Origin: a virus
Strand: one strand, 5' to 3'
DNA length: 22,760 bases
IMG/VR virus record: IMGVR_UViG_3300025759_006410
Span: 1 to 22,760 of that record
Under the pieces are notes generated by a model. That model was not told the DNA's origin, made no database searches, and saw nothing but the letters and a program-made list of their open reading frames with translations. Within the stretch, counting starts at the first letter, position 1. The number at the start of each line of letters is the position of its first letter. Shown in pieces: positions 15,974 to 21,575 of the stretch. A program made the position numbers and the translations under genes.

Positions 15974-17886
15974 GGTGCGTTGTTCATCTCCGTCATCTTG
16001 TATTCCCCATAACTAGGATTATAGTCTAAACCCATGTCCGCAGTATGCTCTTTTTGCATACGCCTAAAAACCTTCATTGGAAACCAACTAGCCATAACTA
16101 TATCAGTTTTTTCCTTATTTCGTTTTGAAACAGGTTTACCATCAAAGTATAACAGTTGTTGCCTATATTGCTGTACTTTTGCATTTGACACACCATCACC
16201 GACAGGTAAGTGTATACGTCTATCTTCAAATAAGTCTGCCATAGCACCTACACCATACAATGGGTCATGTTTGTTTTTACCTGTAAGATGTCCTTGTACA
16301 GTAATACCAGTACGTAATGTAAATTCTTTTATACCTGCATCTTGTCTAATTGCAGACTGAAAACCGTTTTCCTCTACTATCCAATGTCTACAATCGTACT
16401 CGTGTAACCATACAGCCATTTGGTCAAGTGCAGCTCTAATACCTCCACCTTTTTTATTTTCTAAATCAACTAGGTATAACTCACCTTTGTATTGGTCTAT
16501 ACCCCAAAGTACTGCAGCTTGGTAACCAGATGATGCAGGGTCAAGTCCAGCAACTAAATGTAAGTTCTGATACATCTGTCCCATAACTAAATCTGGTCGC
16601 ATACATTGGTCAATAATGTTCATAGTAAATATCTGTGTACCCTCTATGTATGCTTGGTTGTAATACACCATCTCGAATGTCTGTCTACCACCTGTAGATT
16701 CAGCAGAATGTAACCTAGACATTAACCATCTGTAAGAACGTTTACTTGCCCATAACATACAGTCTGTGTGATTTTCTTCTTCATGTTCTGGTATTGCACA
16801 ATCTATAGCGTGTGCTGTTTCTACAATACTAGTAAAGTTATCTGCAGCTAATAAGTGATTATATAAATCATCAGGATGCTGTCTTGAACCAATTACTACT
16901 ACAGCTGTATGTTCCTCTTTACGACTTGATAATGTTGTAGTCCACCATTGTCTAGTACTTTCCCTAGCACCTGGTTGTTGTGTAGTTTGGTGGTCCTCAA
17001 TATCGTCAGCAATAATAATATCGCAGTCACGAGATAATATCTTTCCACCCTTACCTACAGCTACCATTGTCGGTGATTTAATACCTGCAACAGTACGTGT
17101 ACCTACAGTAAATTGATTCTGTGACCAGTTTTTACCTGACCTGTTATCTGGCTTAAAAGATGCACCTGGTGGACAGAAGTCCTCTCTAAGTTCTTCGTTA
17201 GTATCTAGTACGTCAAGTACAGCAGATAATGCGTTTTTAGCTATATCCTCGTTACCACCTACCCACATAATACGTGTGTTGGGGTTTTTACATATTTGAT
17301 ATACAGCAAAATGTATTAACAGTTCAGTCTTTCCATGTCGAGGGGGTGACAGTATTAATAACTCTTTACCGTTTTCTATACTATCAATAATGTTATTTAT
17401 CCAGTTTATATGGAATGGAGCGGTTTCATACTTCTTACCTAACTCGGTTCGGAAATAGCGTTGTCGGAAGTTTGAAAAATTTTCTAATGCATTCTTAGCA
17501 TCTTCGGAGAGTTCCCAGTCTTCTGCAGCTATAGCGTTTCTACTGTCTATCTTGTAGGCAGCGAGCATGCGACTAACGGTAGCTGAAGTGCAACCGAGGA
17601 GGGAAGCCGCGTTGGCTACCGTCATGTCGCCTGTTGCAACCTGGTCAGCTATTCCCTCACTTACGAAAGCTCGGTAATGCTGTCCTCGTCTAACTGAAGC
17701 GTAATCGCCCTCGTCAGACTTACGTTCTATGTTAATAGGTTTTTGTTCAGCTTTCTTGTTATGTCTTGAATCTCTTGCAAACTGTCTCTTTTGGCACTTA
17801 GGGGAACAGAATTTACGTTTTTTACCTGTTAATCTTTTCCTACAACCCTCTGCTATACAGATTACATTGTGTGATGATTCGACCAT
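15964..17886 (-). CDS. terL: Terminase large subunit with N-terminal zinc finger and helix-turn-helix
   Basis: A 640-aa packaging motor and nuclease. The ATPase domain has Walker A SPPRHGKTE (180-188), Walker B CDIIIADD (288-295) and a coupling motif near VIGSRQHPDDL (331-341). The RNase H-like nuclease shows AGLDPASSG (Asp449), WIVEENG (Glu505/506) and KTDIVMA (Asp595), the three acidic positions expected. Unusually, residues 10-31 carry four cysteines (C-x4-C-x11-C-x3-C, with KKRKFCSPKC), followed by a basic stretch and a helix-turn-helix at about 85-112 (TVANAASLLGCTSATVSRML). The DNA for the HTH part is clearly GC-richer than the rest. No separate small terminase is seen in the window, so this module may recognise the packaging site. 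The start is ATG 17886, with AGGAAG twelve bases upstream. Confidence 0.95.
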   Translation of the reverse strand: MVESSHNVICIAEGCRKRLTGKKRKFCSPKCQKRQFARDSRHNKKAEQKPINIERKSDEGDYASVRRGQHYRAFVSEGIADQVATGDMTVANAASLLGCTSATVSRMLAAYKIDSRNAIAAEDWELSEDAKNALENFSNFRQRYFRTELGKKYETAPFHINWINNIIDSIENGKELLILSPPRHGKTELLIHFAVYQICKNPNTRIMWVGGNEDIAKNALSAVLDVLDTNEELREDFCPPGASFKPDNRSGKNWSQNQFTVGTRTVAGIKSPTMVAVGKGGKILSRDCDIIIADDIEDHQTTQQPGARESTRQWWTTTLSSRKEEHTAVVVIGSRQHPDDLYNHLLAADNFTSIVETAHAIDCAIPEHEEENHTDCMLWASKRSYRWLMSRLHSAESTGGRQTFEMVYYNQAYIEGTQIFTMNIIDQCMRPDLVMGQMYQNLHLVAGLDPASSGYQAAVLWGIDQYKGELYLVDLENKKGGGIRAALDQMAVWLHEYDCRHWIVEENGFQSAIRQDAGIKEFTLRTGITVQGHLTGKNKHDPLYGVGAMADLFEDRRIHLPVGDGVSNAKVQQYRQQLLYFDGKPVSKRNKEKTDIVMASWFPMKVFRRMQKEHTADMGLDYNPSYGEYKMTEMNNAPWE

Positions 17887-17910
17887 AAAAAACTATCTTC
17901 CTGTAGATGT

Positions 17911-17938
17911 TTGCGTAGTGCTAATTATATGGTATAGT
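17911..17938 (+). promoter_or_regulatory. Putative rightward extended -10 promoter
   Basis: TTGCGT (17911-17916), a 16-bp spacer, then TATAGT (17933-17938) preceded by TGG, giving an extended -10. Transcription would start near 17945, at the 5' end of the candidate small RNA. It overlaps the opposed terminase promoter, so the two should compete for RNA polymerase. Confidence 0.5.
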
Positions 17939-17952
17939 CCTGTTAATTACAA
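17924..17952 (-). promoter_or_regulatory. Putative leftward promoter for the terminase/virion operon
   Basis: On the minus strand TTGTAA (17952-17947) and a perfect TATAAT (17929-17924) are separated by exactly 17 bp. Transcription would start near 17917, about 30 bases before the terminase ATG. This is the best match to a sigma70 promoter in the region and overlaps the rightward promoter almost fully. Confidence 0.6.
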
Positions 17953-18138
17953 ACATCAAACACAAGTAATTTGTTACAGGTGAAGTTGCAATCGGGATGC
18001 GGAAAGCTGCTGACTGGCGAGACAGTACACTAGAAAGACAAAGGCAGTACCCAAGGACTTAGGAAAAGGTTTGATTAGCTTTCAATAACACTAATGCCCG
18101 CTCATGCTCAAAAGCCTTATACTGACTGGGCTTTTACT
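17945..18138 (+). ncRNA. Candidate phage small RNA
   Basis: About 190 bases with no plausible reading frame, lying between the rightward promoter and a terminator-like hairpin. Pairings seen: AAUUAC (17945-17950) with GUAAUU (17966-17971); GAAAGCU (18002-18008) with AGCUUUC (18077-18083), enclosing a small ACUG/CAGU hairpin; and the final AAAAGCC/GGCUUUU stem. CUGACUGG occurs twice (18010 and 18122). Four GGA triplets in purine-rich context lie at about 17994-18065, which could bind a GGA-reading protein such as CsrA or an anti-Shine-Dalgarno; that is speculation. It is less GC-poor than the flanking DNA. No known RNA family recognised. Confidence 0.45.
18110..18135 (+). terminator. Terminator-like hairpin of the candidate small RNA
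   Basis: AAAAGCC (18110-18116) pairs with GGCTTTT (18129-18135) across a 12-base loop. The U-run is part of the stem rather than following it, so termination may be incomplete. The A-run and T-run make it usable in both directions. Confidence 0.5.
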
Positions 18139-18195
18139 GTACAGAATTACCAGAATATATTTCTAGACATACATATATAGTATACAACGTCTAGA

Positions 18196-18223
18196 TTGAC
18201 ATATGTAGGTCAATGACTATACA
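18196..18223 (+). promoter_or_regulatory. Putative rightward promoter within the inverted repeats
   Basis: A perfect -35 TTGACA (18196-18201), a 16-bp spacer and TATACA (18218-18223). The start would be near 18231, giving a leader of about 315 bases for the first rightward gene. One of the TAGACATA-type repeats overlaps the -35, which would suit regulation by a repeat-binding protein. Confidence 0.4.
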
Positions 18224-18313
18224 GATACAGTTCTTGTATACAGACAGTAGGTAATATTTTCTATATAGAGTAATGTATGCTGTATCTGTATAGACATATA
18301 TGTCCTACATATG
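18200..18313 (+). repeat. Long inverted repeat 1
   Basis: CATATGTAGG (18200-18209) is the exact complement of CCTACATATG (18304-18313). Nested inside, CTATACAGATACAG (18217-18230) is the exact complement of CTGTATCTGTATAG (18280-18293). In all 24 perfect pairs in two blocks surround a 49-base AT-rich loop. It could form a cruciform in DNA or a hairpin in either RNA strand. Confidence 0.75.
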
Positions 18314-18338
18314 AGTATATATAAATTTAAATACAGAG

Positions 18339-18444
18339 GTATGGTAGTTTAATGATGTGCCTTGATACTGTATGTAATGCATAGACATATATACACCTAG
18401 TAATAAGTCCAATAGAGATATCAAGGTACATATTACTACCATAC
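18339..18444 (+). repeat. Long inverted repeat 2
   Basis: GTATGGTAGT (18339-18348) pairs perfectly with ACTACCATAC (18435-18444). After a short bulge, 18355-18367 (ending CCTTGATA) pairs with 18419-18431 (starting TATCAAGG) over 13 positions with one G.U in the plus-strand RNA. With three further pairs between the blocks this gives about 26 pairs around a 51-base loop. It lies in the leader of the first rightward gene. Confidence 0.75.
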
Positions 18445-18479
18445 ATCTGCTATCCCCTTCAACCTCTGATTATCCTACA

Positions 18480-18510
18480 TGTCCCTTTACCTTGCGGAAG
18501 GGACATTCCG
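18480..18510 (+). promoter_or_regulatory. Recurrent TGT-stem-ACATTC hairpin, copy C
   Basis: TGTCCCTT (18480-18487) pairs with AAGGGACA (18498-18505) over eight pairs with loop TACCTTGCGG, followed by TTCCG and a pyrimidine run. It sits 41 bases before the first rightward start codon. It shares its closing TGT/ACA and 3' TTC with the hairpins at 19394-19430 and 21032-21065. Possible roles are an antitermination (put-like) element, an RNase III site or a translational control hairpin. Confidence 0.55.
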
Positions 18511-18546
18511 TCTCTTTCTTTTATCTATGAATAGATTGGAGATATA

Positions 18547-18807
18547 ATGGAACTAGATGAAATTATGACTGTAGATACAGCAGTAGATACAGAGGAAGCT
18601 AAAGATACTGCGACACAAGTAGATAGTAAAACATTTACTTGTAATGCGGATAATCATGAGGGTGATAGACAAGTGAAACTTGGCTTTAACTTTCGTGAGC
18701 AACGCTCTAAGAAAGAAGGGGATAGTTACAAGAATTATGAGTTCTGGTATAGAAACATATGCAAGCCTTGTGGACAAAATCTACTCCTTGAGGCACAAAA
18801 AGCCTAA
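18547..18807 (+). CDS. Small zinc-binding-type early protein, 86 aa
   Basis: First gene of the rightward operon. ATG 18547 follows a GGAG five bases upstream. The first 28 residues are acidic and Thr/Asp-rich, with a near-repeat (VDTAVDTEEAKDTATQVD). Then come TCNADNHEGD (Cys32, His37), a basic stretch and RNICKPCGQ (Cys72, Cys75). Two paired metal-ligand sites about 35 residues apart suggest a single zinc site. No named family recognised. As the first gene after the switch region, with a strong terminator right behind it, it may be the most highly made early product. A host-takeover or regulatory role is possible but not shown. Confidence 0.8.
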   Translation: MELDEIMTVDTAVDTEEAKDTATQVDSKTFTCNADNHEGDRQVKLGFNFREQRSKKEGDSYKNYEFWYRNICKPCGQNLLLEAQKA

Positions 18808-18817
18808 TTTATATATA

Positions 18818-18861
18818 CAGTATGTCTGGTACTCAATGTGCCAGACTACTGGTTTTTTTTT
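18818..18861 (+). terminator. Strong intrinsic terminator
   Basis: CAGTATGTCTGG (18818-18829) pairs with CCAGACTACTG (18841-18851) over eleven pairs with one bulged T and an 11-base loop. It is followed by G and nine T (18853-18861). It lies ten bases after the first rightward gene, so transcription must terminate here in part or be antiterminated to reach the following genes. Confidence 0.9.
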
Positions 18862-18905
18862 ATATAGAACTATCAATAAAAACGTGATAACGAGAAAGGA
18901 TAACT

Positions 18906-19148
18906 ATGGTAGGTGTAATTTGTGGCTATTGTGAACAAGATATTGAAAATACAAGTGACCGTTATTGGTATATAGGTAAAAAGAAATATCCTTTATACGT
19001 ACATAACAGTTGTGGAGTTAAATTAGTATCACATGGCGAAAACATCTGGAAATATCACAGACTTGGTGTAACTAGGACTGAACATGCTGAATATCAAGAA
19101 AGCATTATTGAAGATGTATATTACGAACAAACTAAATTAAGTATCTAG
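18906..19148 (+). CDS. Small zinc-ribbon-like protein, 80 aa
   Basis: ATG 18906 is preceded by GAAAGGA in a leader form that recurs before other genes here. Cys6 and Cys9 (ICGYCEQDI) and His33/Cys36 (VHNSC) form a C-x2-C...H-x2-C pattern of the treble-clef or zinc-ribbon kind, with a lysine-rich loop between (GKKKYPL). The C-terminal 40 residues are polar. Function unknown. Such small zinc proteins in phage early regions are often nucleic-acid or host-protein binders, which remains a general expectation. Confidence 0.8.
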   Translation: MVGVICGYCEQDIENTSDRYWYIGKKKYPLYVHNSCGVKLVSHGENIWKYHRLGVTRTEHAEYQESIIEDVYYEQTKLSI

Positions 19149-19178
19149 TATACTTAAACTAACTATGAAAGGAATACT

Positions 19179-19382
19179 ATGGATAATATCGTAGATATTA
19201 AGAATGCATTAGATGTAATTAAACCTATATTAAATGCAGCCGAAATAAATCAATTAAACAAAATGATTGAGAATGCAGTTACTGCATATCATGAAGGATT
19301 AGTTGATACAAAGATAGCTAATGACCTAGATGTTTTAAACATTACAGCGTCAAAGTTTATCTTTGATGATGCTCCCTTTTAA
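19179..19382 (+). CDS. Small helical protein, 67 aa
   Basis: ATG 19179 follows the same GAAAGGA-type leader. The sequence (MDNIVDIKNALDVIKPILN...) is fully helical and amphipathic, with two or three helices and an acidic, aromatic C-terminus (FIFDDAPF). An acidic tail ending in phenylalanine is reminiscent of the C-terminal tip of single-stranded DNA-binding proteins, but the protein is too short for an OB fold, so I do not call it one. It is followed by a 90-base gap carrying hairpin copy A. Confidence 0.7.
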   Translation: MDNIVDIKNALDVIKPILNAAEINQLNKMIENAVTAYHEGLVDTKIANDLDVLNITASKFIFDDAPF

Positions 19383-19393
19383 TTAAAATAAAC

Positions 19394-19430
19394 GCGTCTG
19401 TATCTGTCTCCCCTTGGCAGATACATTCGC
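19394..19430 (+). promoter_or_regulatory. Recurrent TGT-stem-ACATTC hairpin, copy A
   Basis: TGTATCTG (19399-19406) pairs with CAGATACA (19418-19425), loop TCTCCCCTTGG. An outer GCG/CGC stem (19394-19396 with 19428-19430) is separated from it by a UC/UU internal loop. Flanks CGCGTCTGT and ACATTCGC are identical to those of the copy at 21032. No U-run follows, so it is not an intrinsic terminator. It ends 42 bases before the next start codon. Confidence 0.6.
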
Positions 19431-19472
19431 TGCTTAAAAACTATATAAATAATTAATGACGAAAGGAAAACT

Positions 19473-19619
19473 ATGGATGATAAAGAAATTATAAGTCAAT
19501 TATGGGTATGTCTTAAAAGAGAATATACATATGATGAGGCAAAAATACATATCGAGGCTTTTATGCAAGGTATGACAACACAACGCGAGGTTGTTGTTGT
19601 TAATAAAAAGGAGAAATAA
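19473..19619 (+). CDS. Small protein, 48 aa
   Basis: ATG 19473 has AAAGGA upstream in the recurring leader. The product starts MDDKEIISQLWVCLKREYTY and looks like two amphipathic helices with a basic end (VVVVNKKEK). The last codons encode the AGGAG for the next gene, whose ATG overlaps this stop (TAATG). No family recognised. Strong translation signals and coupling at the downstream end support a real gene. Confidence 0.7.
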   Translation: MDDKEIISQLWVCLKREYTYDEAKIHIEAFMQGMTTQREVVVVNKKEK

Positions 19620-19762
19620 TGTTAGACCCATTAAAAATAATACATTATGCCTTAGCTATTAAACATGAGCTAGGTTTTGATGATATAGAAGCAGCAAACT
19701 ATATTGTTGATGATTTGTGGGAATATGCAACTCATGCACAAATAGATTTGGAGGAAGAATAA
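19619..19762 (+). CDS. Small acidic protein, 47 aa
   Basis: Coupled at both ends by TAATG overlaps, with AGGAG upstream. The sequence begins MLDPLKIIHYALAIKHELGF and continues with an acidic helix (IEAANYIVDDLWEYATHAQ), predicted all-helical. The terminal LEEE codons supply the GGAGGAAG for the next gene. No recognisable family. Confidence 0.7.
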   Translation: MLDPLKIIHYALAIKHELGFDDIEAANYIVDDLWEYATHAQIDLEEE

Positions 19763-19908
19763 TGGCTGAGATATATGCAAAATTTAATTTCAATGTTCTT
19801 TTTGAAGTTGAAGATATCAATGATAGTAATGAGATTAAAGACGCATTAATTGACTGGTGGAGTAACACAACAGACTTACCAGATTATGAAATATTAGAGG
19901 AGGAATAA
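19762..19908 (+). CDS. Small acidic protein, 48 aa
   Basis: I start at the ATG at 19762 (MAEIYAKFNFNVLFEVEDIN), which has GGAGG in place and overlaps the previous stop. A longer frame beginning at 19717 would lie wholly inside the upstream gene and has no ribosome site. There are two short strands, then a helix (NEIKDALIDWWSNTT), and an acidic end (DYEILEEE) whose codons again carry GGAGG for the gene that follows. This beta-alpha pattern could be a tiny ferredoxin-like half-domain related to the next protein, but that is only a shape impression. Confidence 0.7.
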   Translation: MAEIYAKFNFNVLFEVEDINDSNEIKDALIDWWSNTTDLPDYEILEEE

Positions 19909-20474
19909 TGCCTAACTGGTGTAGAAATAGTATTGAACTTACAGGTACTAAAGAAGATATAGATAGATTACTAATTGATGTAACTAATGAAGACGATACA
20001 TATTCATTAACTAACGTAATGCCTACTCCAAAAGAATTTGAGGGTATGCATAGCGGTGCAATTACTATTGACGGTGTTAGATATAAAAATTGGTATGATA
20101 ATGAAGACGGTACTAAACGTCCAGTTATGGATATGGTACTTGATGATTTAAAAGAAAAATATAATTGTACTAACTCTATTGACTGGCAGTATCTTAATTG
20201 GGGTACTAAATGGGGTGATTTTGAAACTACAGTTACAAAAATAGACGACAACACTTTAACTATCTGGTGTGAAACAGCATGGGGTGAACCATTTATGTTA
20301 TTGCAACATATTGCAGAAACATATAATGTATCTATTTGTAACAAATTTCTTGATGAATTTGAGTATGATTTAGAAGAACCACATCAAACAGATTATCCAA
20401 TAGAAGAGTTTGGTATGGTAGAACAAGAACATACAAAATCATTTACTGATTTAATAGAAAGATATAATAGATAA
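19908..20474 (+). CDS. Api92-like / ferredoxin-like domain phage protein, 188 aa
   Basis: ATG 19908 has GAGGAGG upstream. The opening MPNWCRNSIELTG is the hallmark start (MPNWC.N.L.I.G) of the Api92-like family, phage and prophage proteins with a ferredoxin-like fold. Further family-like features are NVMPTPKEFEG (residues 37-47), WQYLNWGTKWG (about 93-103) and WCETAWGEPF (about 120-129), all Trp-rich. The length of 188 aa is in the family range. The molecular role of the family is not established. Placement among tiny early genes fits its usual accessory setting. Family assignment is from memory of the N-terminal motif. Confidence 0.85.
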   Translation: MPNWCRNSIELTGTKEDIDRLLIDVTNEDDTYSLTNVMPTPKEFEGMHSGAITIDGVRYKNWYDNEDGTKRPVMDMVLDDLKEKYNCTNSIDWQYLNWGTKWGDFETTVTKIDDNTLTIWCETAWGEPFMLLQHIAETYNVSICNKFLDEFEYDLEEPHQTDYPIEEFGMVEQEHTKSFTDLIERYNR

Positions 20475-20587
20475 TGGGTGGCTGGTTATTATGCGAAGGT
20501 TGTGGACGTTATTCTCATACGCACAATGGTGGTGGAGAGATTAATAATAAACACTATTGCGAACCATGTTACCCAGAATATATATAG
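20474..20587 (+). CDS. Zinc-ribbon microprotein, 37 aa
   Basis: ATG 20474 overlaps the previous stop (TAATG). Only 37 residues, but with a full zinc-ribbon pattern: Cys7/Cys10 (LLCEGCGRY) and Cys29/Cys32 (YCEPCYP), with His15/His17 between. The two knuckles are 18 residues apart, enough for one tetrahedral zinc site, so it may fold by itself. The last bases run into AGGAGG for the next gene. Short, but the regular cysteine spacing argues strongly for a real gene. Confidence 0.75.
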   Translation: MGGWLLCEGCGRYSHTHNGGGEINNKHYCEPCYPEYI

Positions 20588-20595
20588 GAGGAAGA

Positions 20596-20805
20596 ATGAC
20601 GTACAAATATGTAGATAGTAATGCTAGAAGAAATGAGAATATTTTATCTATTGACTTTACATTCAATGGAGATGTGACAATGGAAGATGCCATTGCACAA
20701 ATAGACATGATGGTAAGTAATGTTGACAATGACGGTGATATAGAATTTAAATCTTATCAGCCAAGAATGTTCAGCATATCAGGACTATCTAATTTAATAG
20801 AATAA
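20596..20805 (+). CDS. Small protein of unknown function, 69 aa
   Basis: I choose the ATG at 20596 (MTYKYVDSNARRNENILSID) because AGGAGG lies seven bases upstream. A longer frame starting at 20557 would overlap the microprotein gene without a ribosome site. Predicted beta-alpha-beta: a strand (ILSIDFTF), an acidic helix (TMEDAIAQIDMMVSNV), a strand (DIEFKSYQP), and a hydrophobic end. No cysteine. No family recognised. It is the last gene before the 284-base structured gap. Confidence 0.7.
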   Translation: MTYKYVDSNARRNENILSIDFTFNGDVTMEDAIAQIDMMVSNVDNDGDIEFKSYQPRMFSISGLSNLIE

Positions 20806-20813
20806 ATACTCCG

Positions 20814-20946
20814 CTACTTACAATGAGAGTTTTCATAGTTCTCTCCGTTAGACCATATTGTAGGTAGCTTGTAGCACATAGGAACGTTGACCATTTGGTA
20901 ACCATTCCATTAGGTCTAATCGACTGTGTGTTACAAGCTATCTATA
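20814..20946 (+). ncRNA. Structured RNA with 23-bp stem, competing stem and possible pseudoknot
   Basis: Bases 20859-20881 pair without interruption with 20924-20946 (23 pairs). The four non-Watson-Crick pairs (60/45, 64/41, 74/31, 79/26) are all G.U in the plus strand and would be C/A mismatches in the minus strand, so the plus-strand RNA is the folded one. Inside the loop GTT-g-ACC/GGTAAC (20886-20902) makes a small hairpin. TTAGACC (20848-20854) can pair with GGTCTAA (20913-20919) in the same loop, a pseudoknot. CTACTTACAAT (20814-20824) pairs with ATTGTAGGTAG (20857-20867), which excludes the base of the big stem. No known family recognised. Confidence 0.6.
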
Positions 20947-20969
20947 CGTACGTAGCTTACAGTTCAGTT

Positions 20970-20992
20970 TTAACATACAAAAGTATTGTTAA
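20970..20992 (+). other. Bulged hairpin in the gap before the ATPase operon
   Basis: TTAACATAC (20970-20978) pairs with GTAtTGTTAA (20983-20992) over nine pairs with one bulged T and an AAAA tetraloop. AT-rich and followed only by ATTTC, so a weak terminator at most. The rest of the stretch from 20947 to 21089 has another short stem (GGTGC/GCATC, about 21016-21031) and hairpin copy B. Confidence 0.45.
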
Positions 20993-21031
20993 TTTCATGC
21001 CCGACTGGACTGTGAGGTGCATACAAGCATC

Positions 21032-21065
21032 CGCGTCTGTCGTATCTCCGTGAACGACATTCGCG
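21032..21065 (+). promoter_or_regulatory. Recurrent TGT-stem-ACATTC hairpin, copy B
   Basis: TGTCGT (21038-21043) pairs with ACGACA (21054-21059), loop ATCTCCGTGA. An outer CGCG/CGCG stem (21032-21035 with 21062-21065) is set off by a UC/UU internal loop as in copy A. Relative to A the inner stem bases change on both sides together, which is covariation within one genome. It ends 24 bases before the next start codon. Confidence 0.6.
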
Positions 21066-21089
21066 TTTATTAACTATGAAAGGATACCT

Positions 21090-21575
21090 ATGAAAGAACA
21101 TCTAATGCATTTAGGTGCGTCAAAACAGGAACAAAAGTTATACAACTATACAGCTGTATACAATCCTAATGACATAACTAATGATAAGAAGTCATTACGT
21201 ATTGAAGATAAACCAGTCACAATGGTATATCGTGTTGAAGTATGGTCAGATAATATTGCCAATGCTTTAAACAAAGGTATGGAAATTGTAAATCTGCAAC
21301 GTGCAGAGGAAATGACTGATTACGTTACAACTCATCCTAGATTACAAAATAAAGAATTTGTAACAATAAATGAGATAAATACAATACGTGATGAGGCAAT
21401 AGATATTGGTTTGTTTACTGATTGGATGATTATAACTCCAACAAGTATTCAAATTAATTTAGCAGACGATGAAGAACTACTGCAATCCCAAGTTATAGAA
21501 AGAGCTATGCATAGCGTAACTAACATTGGTGAAGAAGTAGACGATTATCTAAAGGAGATAACAGATGATGCCTAA
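21090..21575 (+). CDS. Protein of unknown function, 161 aa
   Basis: ATG 21090 follows the recurring GAAAGGA leader. The N-terminal 30 residues are polar (SKQEQKLYNYTAVYNPNDIT). Residues 43-70 look like a strand plus helix (VTMVYRVEVWSDNIANALNK). The C-terminal third is acidic and helical (EELLQSQVIERAMHSVTNIG). No catalytic motif or cysteine. It is the first of at least four genes joined by overlaps, the third being an AAA+ ATPase, so it probably acts in the same process. Family not recognised. Confidence 0.75.
   Translation: MKEHLMHLGASKQEQKLYNYTAVYNPNDITNDKKSLRIEDKPVTMVYRVEVWSDNIANALNKGMEIVNLQRAEEMTDYVTTHPRLQNKEFVTINEINTIRDEAIDIGLFTDWMIITPTSIQINLADDEELLQSQVIERAMHSVTNIGEEVDDYLKEITDDA

Follow-up and report, generated by a model that had tools for sequence, protein, structure and literature searches.

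A probable modular non-coding RNA locus with exchangeable interiors in uncultured, mostly marine phages

Introduction

What kind of element is the long hairpin that stands in front of an ATPase operon in the DNA of an uncultured phage, and does it serve that operon or act on its own account? The stretch of DNA analysed here, referred to as the window, comprises 22,760 nucleotides (IMG/VR record IMGVR_UViG_3300025759_006410, positions 1–22,760) with a G+C content of ~33%. Its minus strand encodes an SU10-like major capsid protein as well as a large terminase, and an AAA ATPase (MoxR/CobS-like) operon occupies its right end on the plus strand. The isolates nearest to the capsid and terminase proteins are actinophages, at 24–29% identity, a proximity of the structural proteins that makes a marine actinobacterium of low G+C content a plausible, though unproven, host; the host marker WhiB was found in 0 of 47 records, and the phage isolate collection contained no DNA match to the window.

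An earlier examination made from the letters and the open reading frames, the sequence-only reading, had proposed at this site a plus-strand RNA with competing stems and a pseudoknot, which would be either an attenuator or riboswitch of the ATPase operon or a free-standing phage RNA. The hairpin is now recognized as a member of a non-coding RNA locus that is widespread among uncultured phages, mostly marine ones, and has apparently not been described before. Judged from sequence comparison, the window very probably carries one unit of a modular phage RNA, which is built of exchangeable modules and read from the plus strand.

The hairpin and its setting

The gap at 20806–21089 (284 nt, plus strand), which lies between an 82-aa ORF (20557–20805) and a 161-aa ORF (21090–21575) in the ORF list, holds no ORF of 60 aa or more. 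Folded in its entirety (20806–21090), it yields z = -8.5, with a folding energy of -101.5 kcal/mol on the plus strand versus -77.8 kcal/mol on the minus strand, and the corresponding gap in relatives is also structured. Within it, the uninterrupted stem of 23 pairs that had been described from the letters was confirmed, the 5' arm at 20859–20881 (TGTAGGTAGCTTGTAGCACATAG; family consensus GTAGGTAGCTTGTAGCACATA) pairing on the plus strand with the 3' arm at 20924–20946 (CTGTGTGTTACAAGCTATCTATA; family consensus TGTGTGTTACAAGCTATCTAT). Its four wobble pairs are, as had been claimed, all G.U on the plus strand (G20860.U20945, G20864.U20941, G20874.U20931 and U20879.G20926). The region 20800–20960 folds at -56.7 kcal/mol (z = -7.4), and 0 of 200 shuffles were equally stable. 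This platform stem encloses an exchangeable inner module at 20882–20923 (plus strand) with the core GACCATTTGGTAACCA(N)TCCATTAGGTCTAATC, which is present in 11 retrieved stretches from other contigs; elsewhere the module sits mostly on a platform stem, in addition to an outer position in two contigs (L115, L213) and a diverged platform in another (L208).

The structured region is larger than the interval first noted, since it occupies 20806–21089 and includes two further plus-strand hairpins. In the second hairpin (20956–21016), CTTACAGTTCAG (20956–20967) is predicted to pair with CTGGACTGTGAG (21005–21016), and CATGCCC lies at 20996–21002; the module that it represents is also located 3' of the platform in L003, L046 and L145. 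The last predicted hairpin (21032–21065) precedes the ribosome-binding site GAAAGGA (21078–21084) and includes a weak terminator-like match at 21049–21065, and a hairpin is found at the same position in several relatives. No strong terminator was found in the gap 20806–21089. Farther upstream, in the early region, plus-strand terminator-like hairpins with T runs are located at 18494–18518 and 18824–18853 of the window, and five such hairpins were found over 17880–21200 against 0.9 expected from shuffles.

In the relatives L050, L064 and L066, which lack the platform stem, the region ~830 nt upstream of the ATPase retains TGCCC as a motif, together with a hairpin of 15 pairs (CTTTCTCTGTCGGTT / AACCGACAAAGAAAG) ahead of the start codon; a CCGACAG farther upstream is a possible competitor. 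Related ATPase-carrying contigs bear another non-coding array upstream of the ATPase, composed of G-rich units that each end in AAGGTAAGGCACATTAAAGTTTTAATT or similar (L041 4910–5483, L032 5052–5524, L042 5122–5524, L049 5276–5488 and L077 1–408).

A family of platform elements in viral contigs

A 29-base probe taken from the element matched another contig, in which an identical module has different flanks and is adjoined by a second element with a different interior. The 16-base 5' arm TAGCTTGTAGCACATA matched at least 120 stretches of viral contigs. Among the matches listed, 126 of 127 sites had the 3' arm TGTGTGTTACAAGCTATCTA no more than 220 nt after the exact 5' arm, as compared with 2 after shuffling, the 127 being only those sites that were found by the 16-base 5' arm alone and had enough downstream sequence. 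The sole exact 5' arm without its partner (L151 3649) belongs to a unit that looks truncated and is followed by A-rich sequence. A search of 84,980 bacterial and archaeal genomes returned no match to the platform arms.

In total, 178 elements were extracted, 173 of which are distinct and were used for the arm-pair counts. Their interiors form ~90 clusters and are 9–143 nt long, a range that applies within the 260 nt allowed between arm starts in the search. Because a single arm consensus was the basis for finding all 178, divergent platforms are under-counted, and more divergent ones do exist (L019, L033 and L070). The elements are intergenic, and each record has a single locus of one to few clustered copies, the sequences being metagenome contigs, many of them partial.

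Selection on a plus-strand RNA

Over the 173 elements, the cells of the arm pairs are Watson-Crick in 2902 cases, G.U in 522, A.C in 9 and other in 27, and the plus strand gives the more stable fold in 173 of 173, biases whose size is partly built in because resemblance to the consensus served both to find the elements and to orient them. The pattern at variable arm positions is not built in by this orientation; position 14 of the arm, for instance, is G.U, A-U or G-C and never A.C. Moreover, in 26 arm pairs that were hand-picked as divergent and pairing, 97.3% of the cells are paired and both sides have changed at 15 of 21 base pairs; neither the shuffles nor the slid registers approach the observed pairing. 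The flanking genes are largely co-directional with the elements (114:7 upstream and 109:15 downstream). The proposal that selection acts on a plus-strand RNA, originally drawn from the wobble pairs of the window, is therefore supported by the preference for G.U over A.C, by compensatory changes and by the sense orientation to flanking genes. When interiors are folded by themselves, neither strand is favoured in energy (84 lower, 86 higher), so the case for their being RNA is made by the outer modules and by position.

Some arrays are followed by terminators. On the minus strand of L184, a strong intrinsic terminator (CACCCCCATTAATTTGGGGGTGTTTTTTTT) comes after the array, with a small ORF between, and on the minus strand of L182 a near-identical one (GCCCCC..GGGGGC) comes after the units, an arrangement that suggests that the array is contained within a transcription unit.

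The stem is not the only conserved helix. On the plus strand, segment 2 (20857–20868; ATTGTAGGTAGC) has two alternative partners: segment 1, the 5' strand of a competing helix (20813–20824; GCTACTTACAAT), and, for the bases from 20859 onward, the 3' arm of the platform. The second stem proposed earlier thus exists, although it has 12 pairs here (20813–20824 / 20857–20868) rather than 11, and it overlaps the platform at 20859–20868. The competition between the two helices, noted in the window, proved to be conserved: in 124 of 159 elements, 10 or more bases at the base of the 5' arm find a complement upstream, versus ~7 of 159 with shuffled upstream sequence, and the competing helix shows compensatory changes. 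Its 4-nt extension outside the platform is variable (CATT/AATG, CTGG/CCAG and CGTT/AACG are examples) and scores 2.58 in pairing, against a mean of 2.14 and a maximum of 2.38 in 1000 shuffles between elements. Because both the upstream complement and the extension pairing exceed the shuffles, the platform stem and the competing helix both seem to be under selection.

Between the strands of the competing helix lies a small leader hairpin (20825–20845, plus strand; GAGAG-TTTTCATAGTT-CTCTC, from sequence and fold), a position at which relatives have other stems (GGGG..CCCC, CTAG..CTAG). It is followed by the plus-strand linker TTAGACC (20848–20854), for which a 7-pair kissing contact with GGTCTAA (20913–20919) had been put forward. 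The complement is real, but only 1 of the 16 elements with a TTAGACC linker, that of the window, has the partner GGTCTAA, and for this reason the contact is unsupported as a functional one.

Exchange of modules

Where both flanks of two contigs are at least 95% identical, the interiors are unrelated in 8 of 12 pairs, and at 90–95% flank identity in 18 of 22 pairs; L034, L035 and L036 present one frame with three different interiors. In addition, 118 pairs have interiors at least 75% alike without homology of the flanks. Modules pass from phage to phage and from one position to another, and what distinguishes near-identical phages is the complete replacement of one module, although such swaps could in principle be chimeras of metagenome assembly at repeats.

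Several phages carry head-to-tail units, in which inner modules, inside the stem, alternate with outer modules, defined as the sequence from the 3' arm of one unit to the 5' arm of the next. The outer module O1 reads GTARGAG-stem-CCCTGTT loop-stem-ACTGAA, and its stem is 80% paired versus 52% in shuffles (maximum 66%; 0 of 2000 reach the observed value). The outer module O2 adopts a pseudoknot-like fold with compensatory changes at three pairs, which, with 8 sequences, is modest evidence. A hairpin resembling the T arm of tRNA (GTAGGTTCAAATCCTAC, ATAGGTTCGAATCCTAT) was observed in the inner modules of L009 4951, L055 3837, L110 3244, L123, L125, L037 4994 and L081 4436.

Regulation, DNA mobility or a modular RNA

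It had been suggested that the element is an attenuator or riboswitch in front of the ATPase operon. As a cis-acting leader, it would regulate the 161-aa/ATPase operon downstream of it by switching between the competing helices. As in attenuators and riboswitches, two mutually exclusive helices are present and both are conserved; in the lineage of the window, the element occupies the leader of the ATPase operon, and the last hairpin, with its weak terminator-like match, lies before the ribosome-binding site. The likeness does not extend to a constant aptamer or sensor domain, a strong terminator or a fixed type of downstream gene, none of which was found with the platform elements. In other phages they adjoin 92 protein families, several phages hold them in tandem arrays, and the interior, which would be the aptamer site, is swapped for unrelated sequence while the downstream gene stays constant, whereas the relatives L050, L064 and L066 have only the last hairpin, and no long platform stem, before the ATPase operon. 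Control of the operon in cis is thus disfavoured and considered unlikely. The other suggestion, a free-standing phage RNA, came nearer the mark, but the mobile and modular character of the family was absent from it.

Two further explanations place the function in DNA. In a mobile element or recombination site of the MITE, REP or attC kind, a transposase or integrase would act on the arms, either as inverted repeats at its ends or as a site folded from a single strand, and the inverted conserved arms that flank variable cargo, the recurrence of modules in unrelated contexts and the fact that attC sites are also hairpins with variable tops (PMC2727003) would fit such an origin. It is nevertheless very unlikely, because it leaves the fixed G.U pairs, in place of A.C, and the strict sense orientation unexplained; moreover, copies are clustered at one locus per phage rather than dispersed, the conserved extension of the competing helix falls outside the arms, and none of the copies, with modules of 9–143 nt in a search of up to 260 nt between arm starts, contained a gene. 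Neither a tyrosine recombinase (PF00589; 0 of 44 records, which are partial, with 14 of 14 controls positive) nor a Y1 transposase, the only transposase type searched (0 of 44 records), was found. Integrons and transposons were rejected on the enzyme not found in the 44 records and on the wrong distribution, and MITE or REP elements on the clustering at one locus per record and the Y1 result. The least probable explanation, one to which hardly any weight is given, is a replication or packaging signal. Some phages use single-strand DNA hairpins as replication, primase or promoter signals, and a locus that is hairpin-rich, intergenic and present once per phage could be an origin, a primase site or a vRNAP-type promoter of that sort; however, dozens of exchangeable folded modules are not needed by an origin, the gene neighbourhood varies, and there are relatives without a platform stem at the site of the window.

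For the modular plus-strand RNA, which is the preferred explanation, the following course of events can be postulated. The locus would be transcribed with the early operon, and the helix directly upstream, a competitor for the base of the 5' arm, would form first during transcription, until the conserved platform stem of ~20 pairs around the exchangeable module displaces it once the 3' arm emerges. The platform, a good duplex of the RNase III type, may insulate the module or release it as a small RNA. Modules may be swapped by homologous recombination through the conserved arms, aided by a phage single-strand annealing protein. Such a protein (phrog_3290) was detected in 27 of 44 records and missing in 17 of 44, these records being partial, and was not found in the window; many loci have both a member of the annealing-protein family and a phage exonuclease-like protein. 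The best guess as to function, a tentative one, is a trans action of the modules on host factors, their diversity being maintained by an arms race with host defence or competing phages.

A broader possibility, speculative in the same degree, is a cassette system at the RNA level, through which uncultured, mostly marine phages would share dozens of small, folded trans-acting RNAs that are carried on a standard stem, presented or released by a host double-strand RNA nuclease and shuffled by recombination. If true, this would amount to integron-like shuffling as a means to beat changing host defences or rival phages. The arrays hold ~90 distinct modules, some families of which have evidence for their fold, and each module can be made and tested individually. 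The modules are candidate phage RNAs acting on host defence, translation or RNA turnover, and the arrays would show how phages evolve RNA function through recombination.

Comparison with known systems

The view that no known family fits the structure held up, as neither the window nor eight array loci matched any Rfam 15 family at the gathering score, and relaxed scans returned nothing credible. The closest resemblance is to the ssNA-helicase RNA (RF03070), a motif reportedly described by Weinberg in 2017, in which a hairpin is followed by UGUAGCAUGUAGCA, close to GTAGCTTGTAGCA in the platform 5' arm. Weak matches to the RF03070 model fall at or near platform arms where checked, with a best score of 22.5 bits against a gathering score of 41.5, and the window itself has no match at E <= 0.1. 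The conserved UGUAGCAUGUAGCA after the hairpin was not found as such in the elements, the arm GTAGCTTGTAGCA being alike to GTAGCATGTAGCA at 12 of 13 positions, and the exact RF03070 motif CTTATGTAGCATGTAGCA was not found in viral contigs. The model also lacks the 3' arm and the module of the platform elements. The ssNA-helicase RNA was rejected as an identity, the resemblance being in sequence only and all matches below the gathering score.

Phage tRNA arrays and trans-acting small RNAs are likewise small-RNA arrays in phages, and some modules have a T-arm-like hairpin. Platform modules differ in being clipped into a common stem and freely exchanged, and ARAGORN found no tRNA in the window or in 22 loci, the T-arm-like hairpins notwithstanding, on which ground a tRNA or tRNA array was rejected.

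ESAS of Cluster K mycobacteriophages are imperfect inverted repeats of 17 bp with a variable spacer, mostly in one orientation and near gene starts; a genome has them at many of its genes, their spacers measure mostly 4–13 bp and a 13-bp start-associated sequence lies adjacent (PMC3203893). Platform arms are also inverted repeats around a variable spacer in a single orientation, but they make up one array per phage and one locus per record, on a 20-bp stem with folded, exchangeable spacers of 9–143 nt, so the elements do not belong to the ESAS.

Integron attC sites are hairpins whose base is conserved and whose terminal structure varies, and cargo is exchanged in cassette arrays (PMC2727003, PMC6393395). 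Platform hairpins share the conserved base, the variable top and the exchange of cargo in arrays; the differences are that the phage locus has no integrase, that no gene cassettes were seen, that the stem has fixed G.U pairs and that the cargo is folded RNA of 9–143 nt. The platform arms read GTTACAA and TTGTAGC (alignment A1), which are not attC R boxes. The R-box consensus of integrons is GTTRRRY / RYYYAAC.

No description of such arrays was found in a literature search that covered few subscription journals, so a prior description is possible. Known hypervariable phage loci exchange protein genes, whereas the unit swapped here is a small non-coding RNA module on a standard stem.
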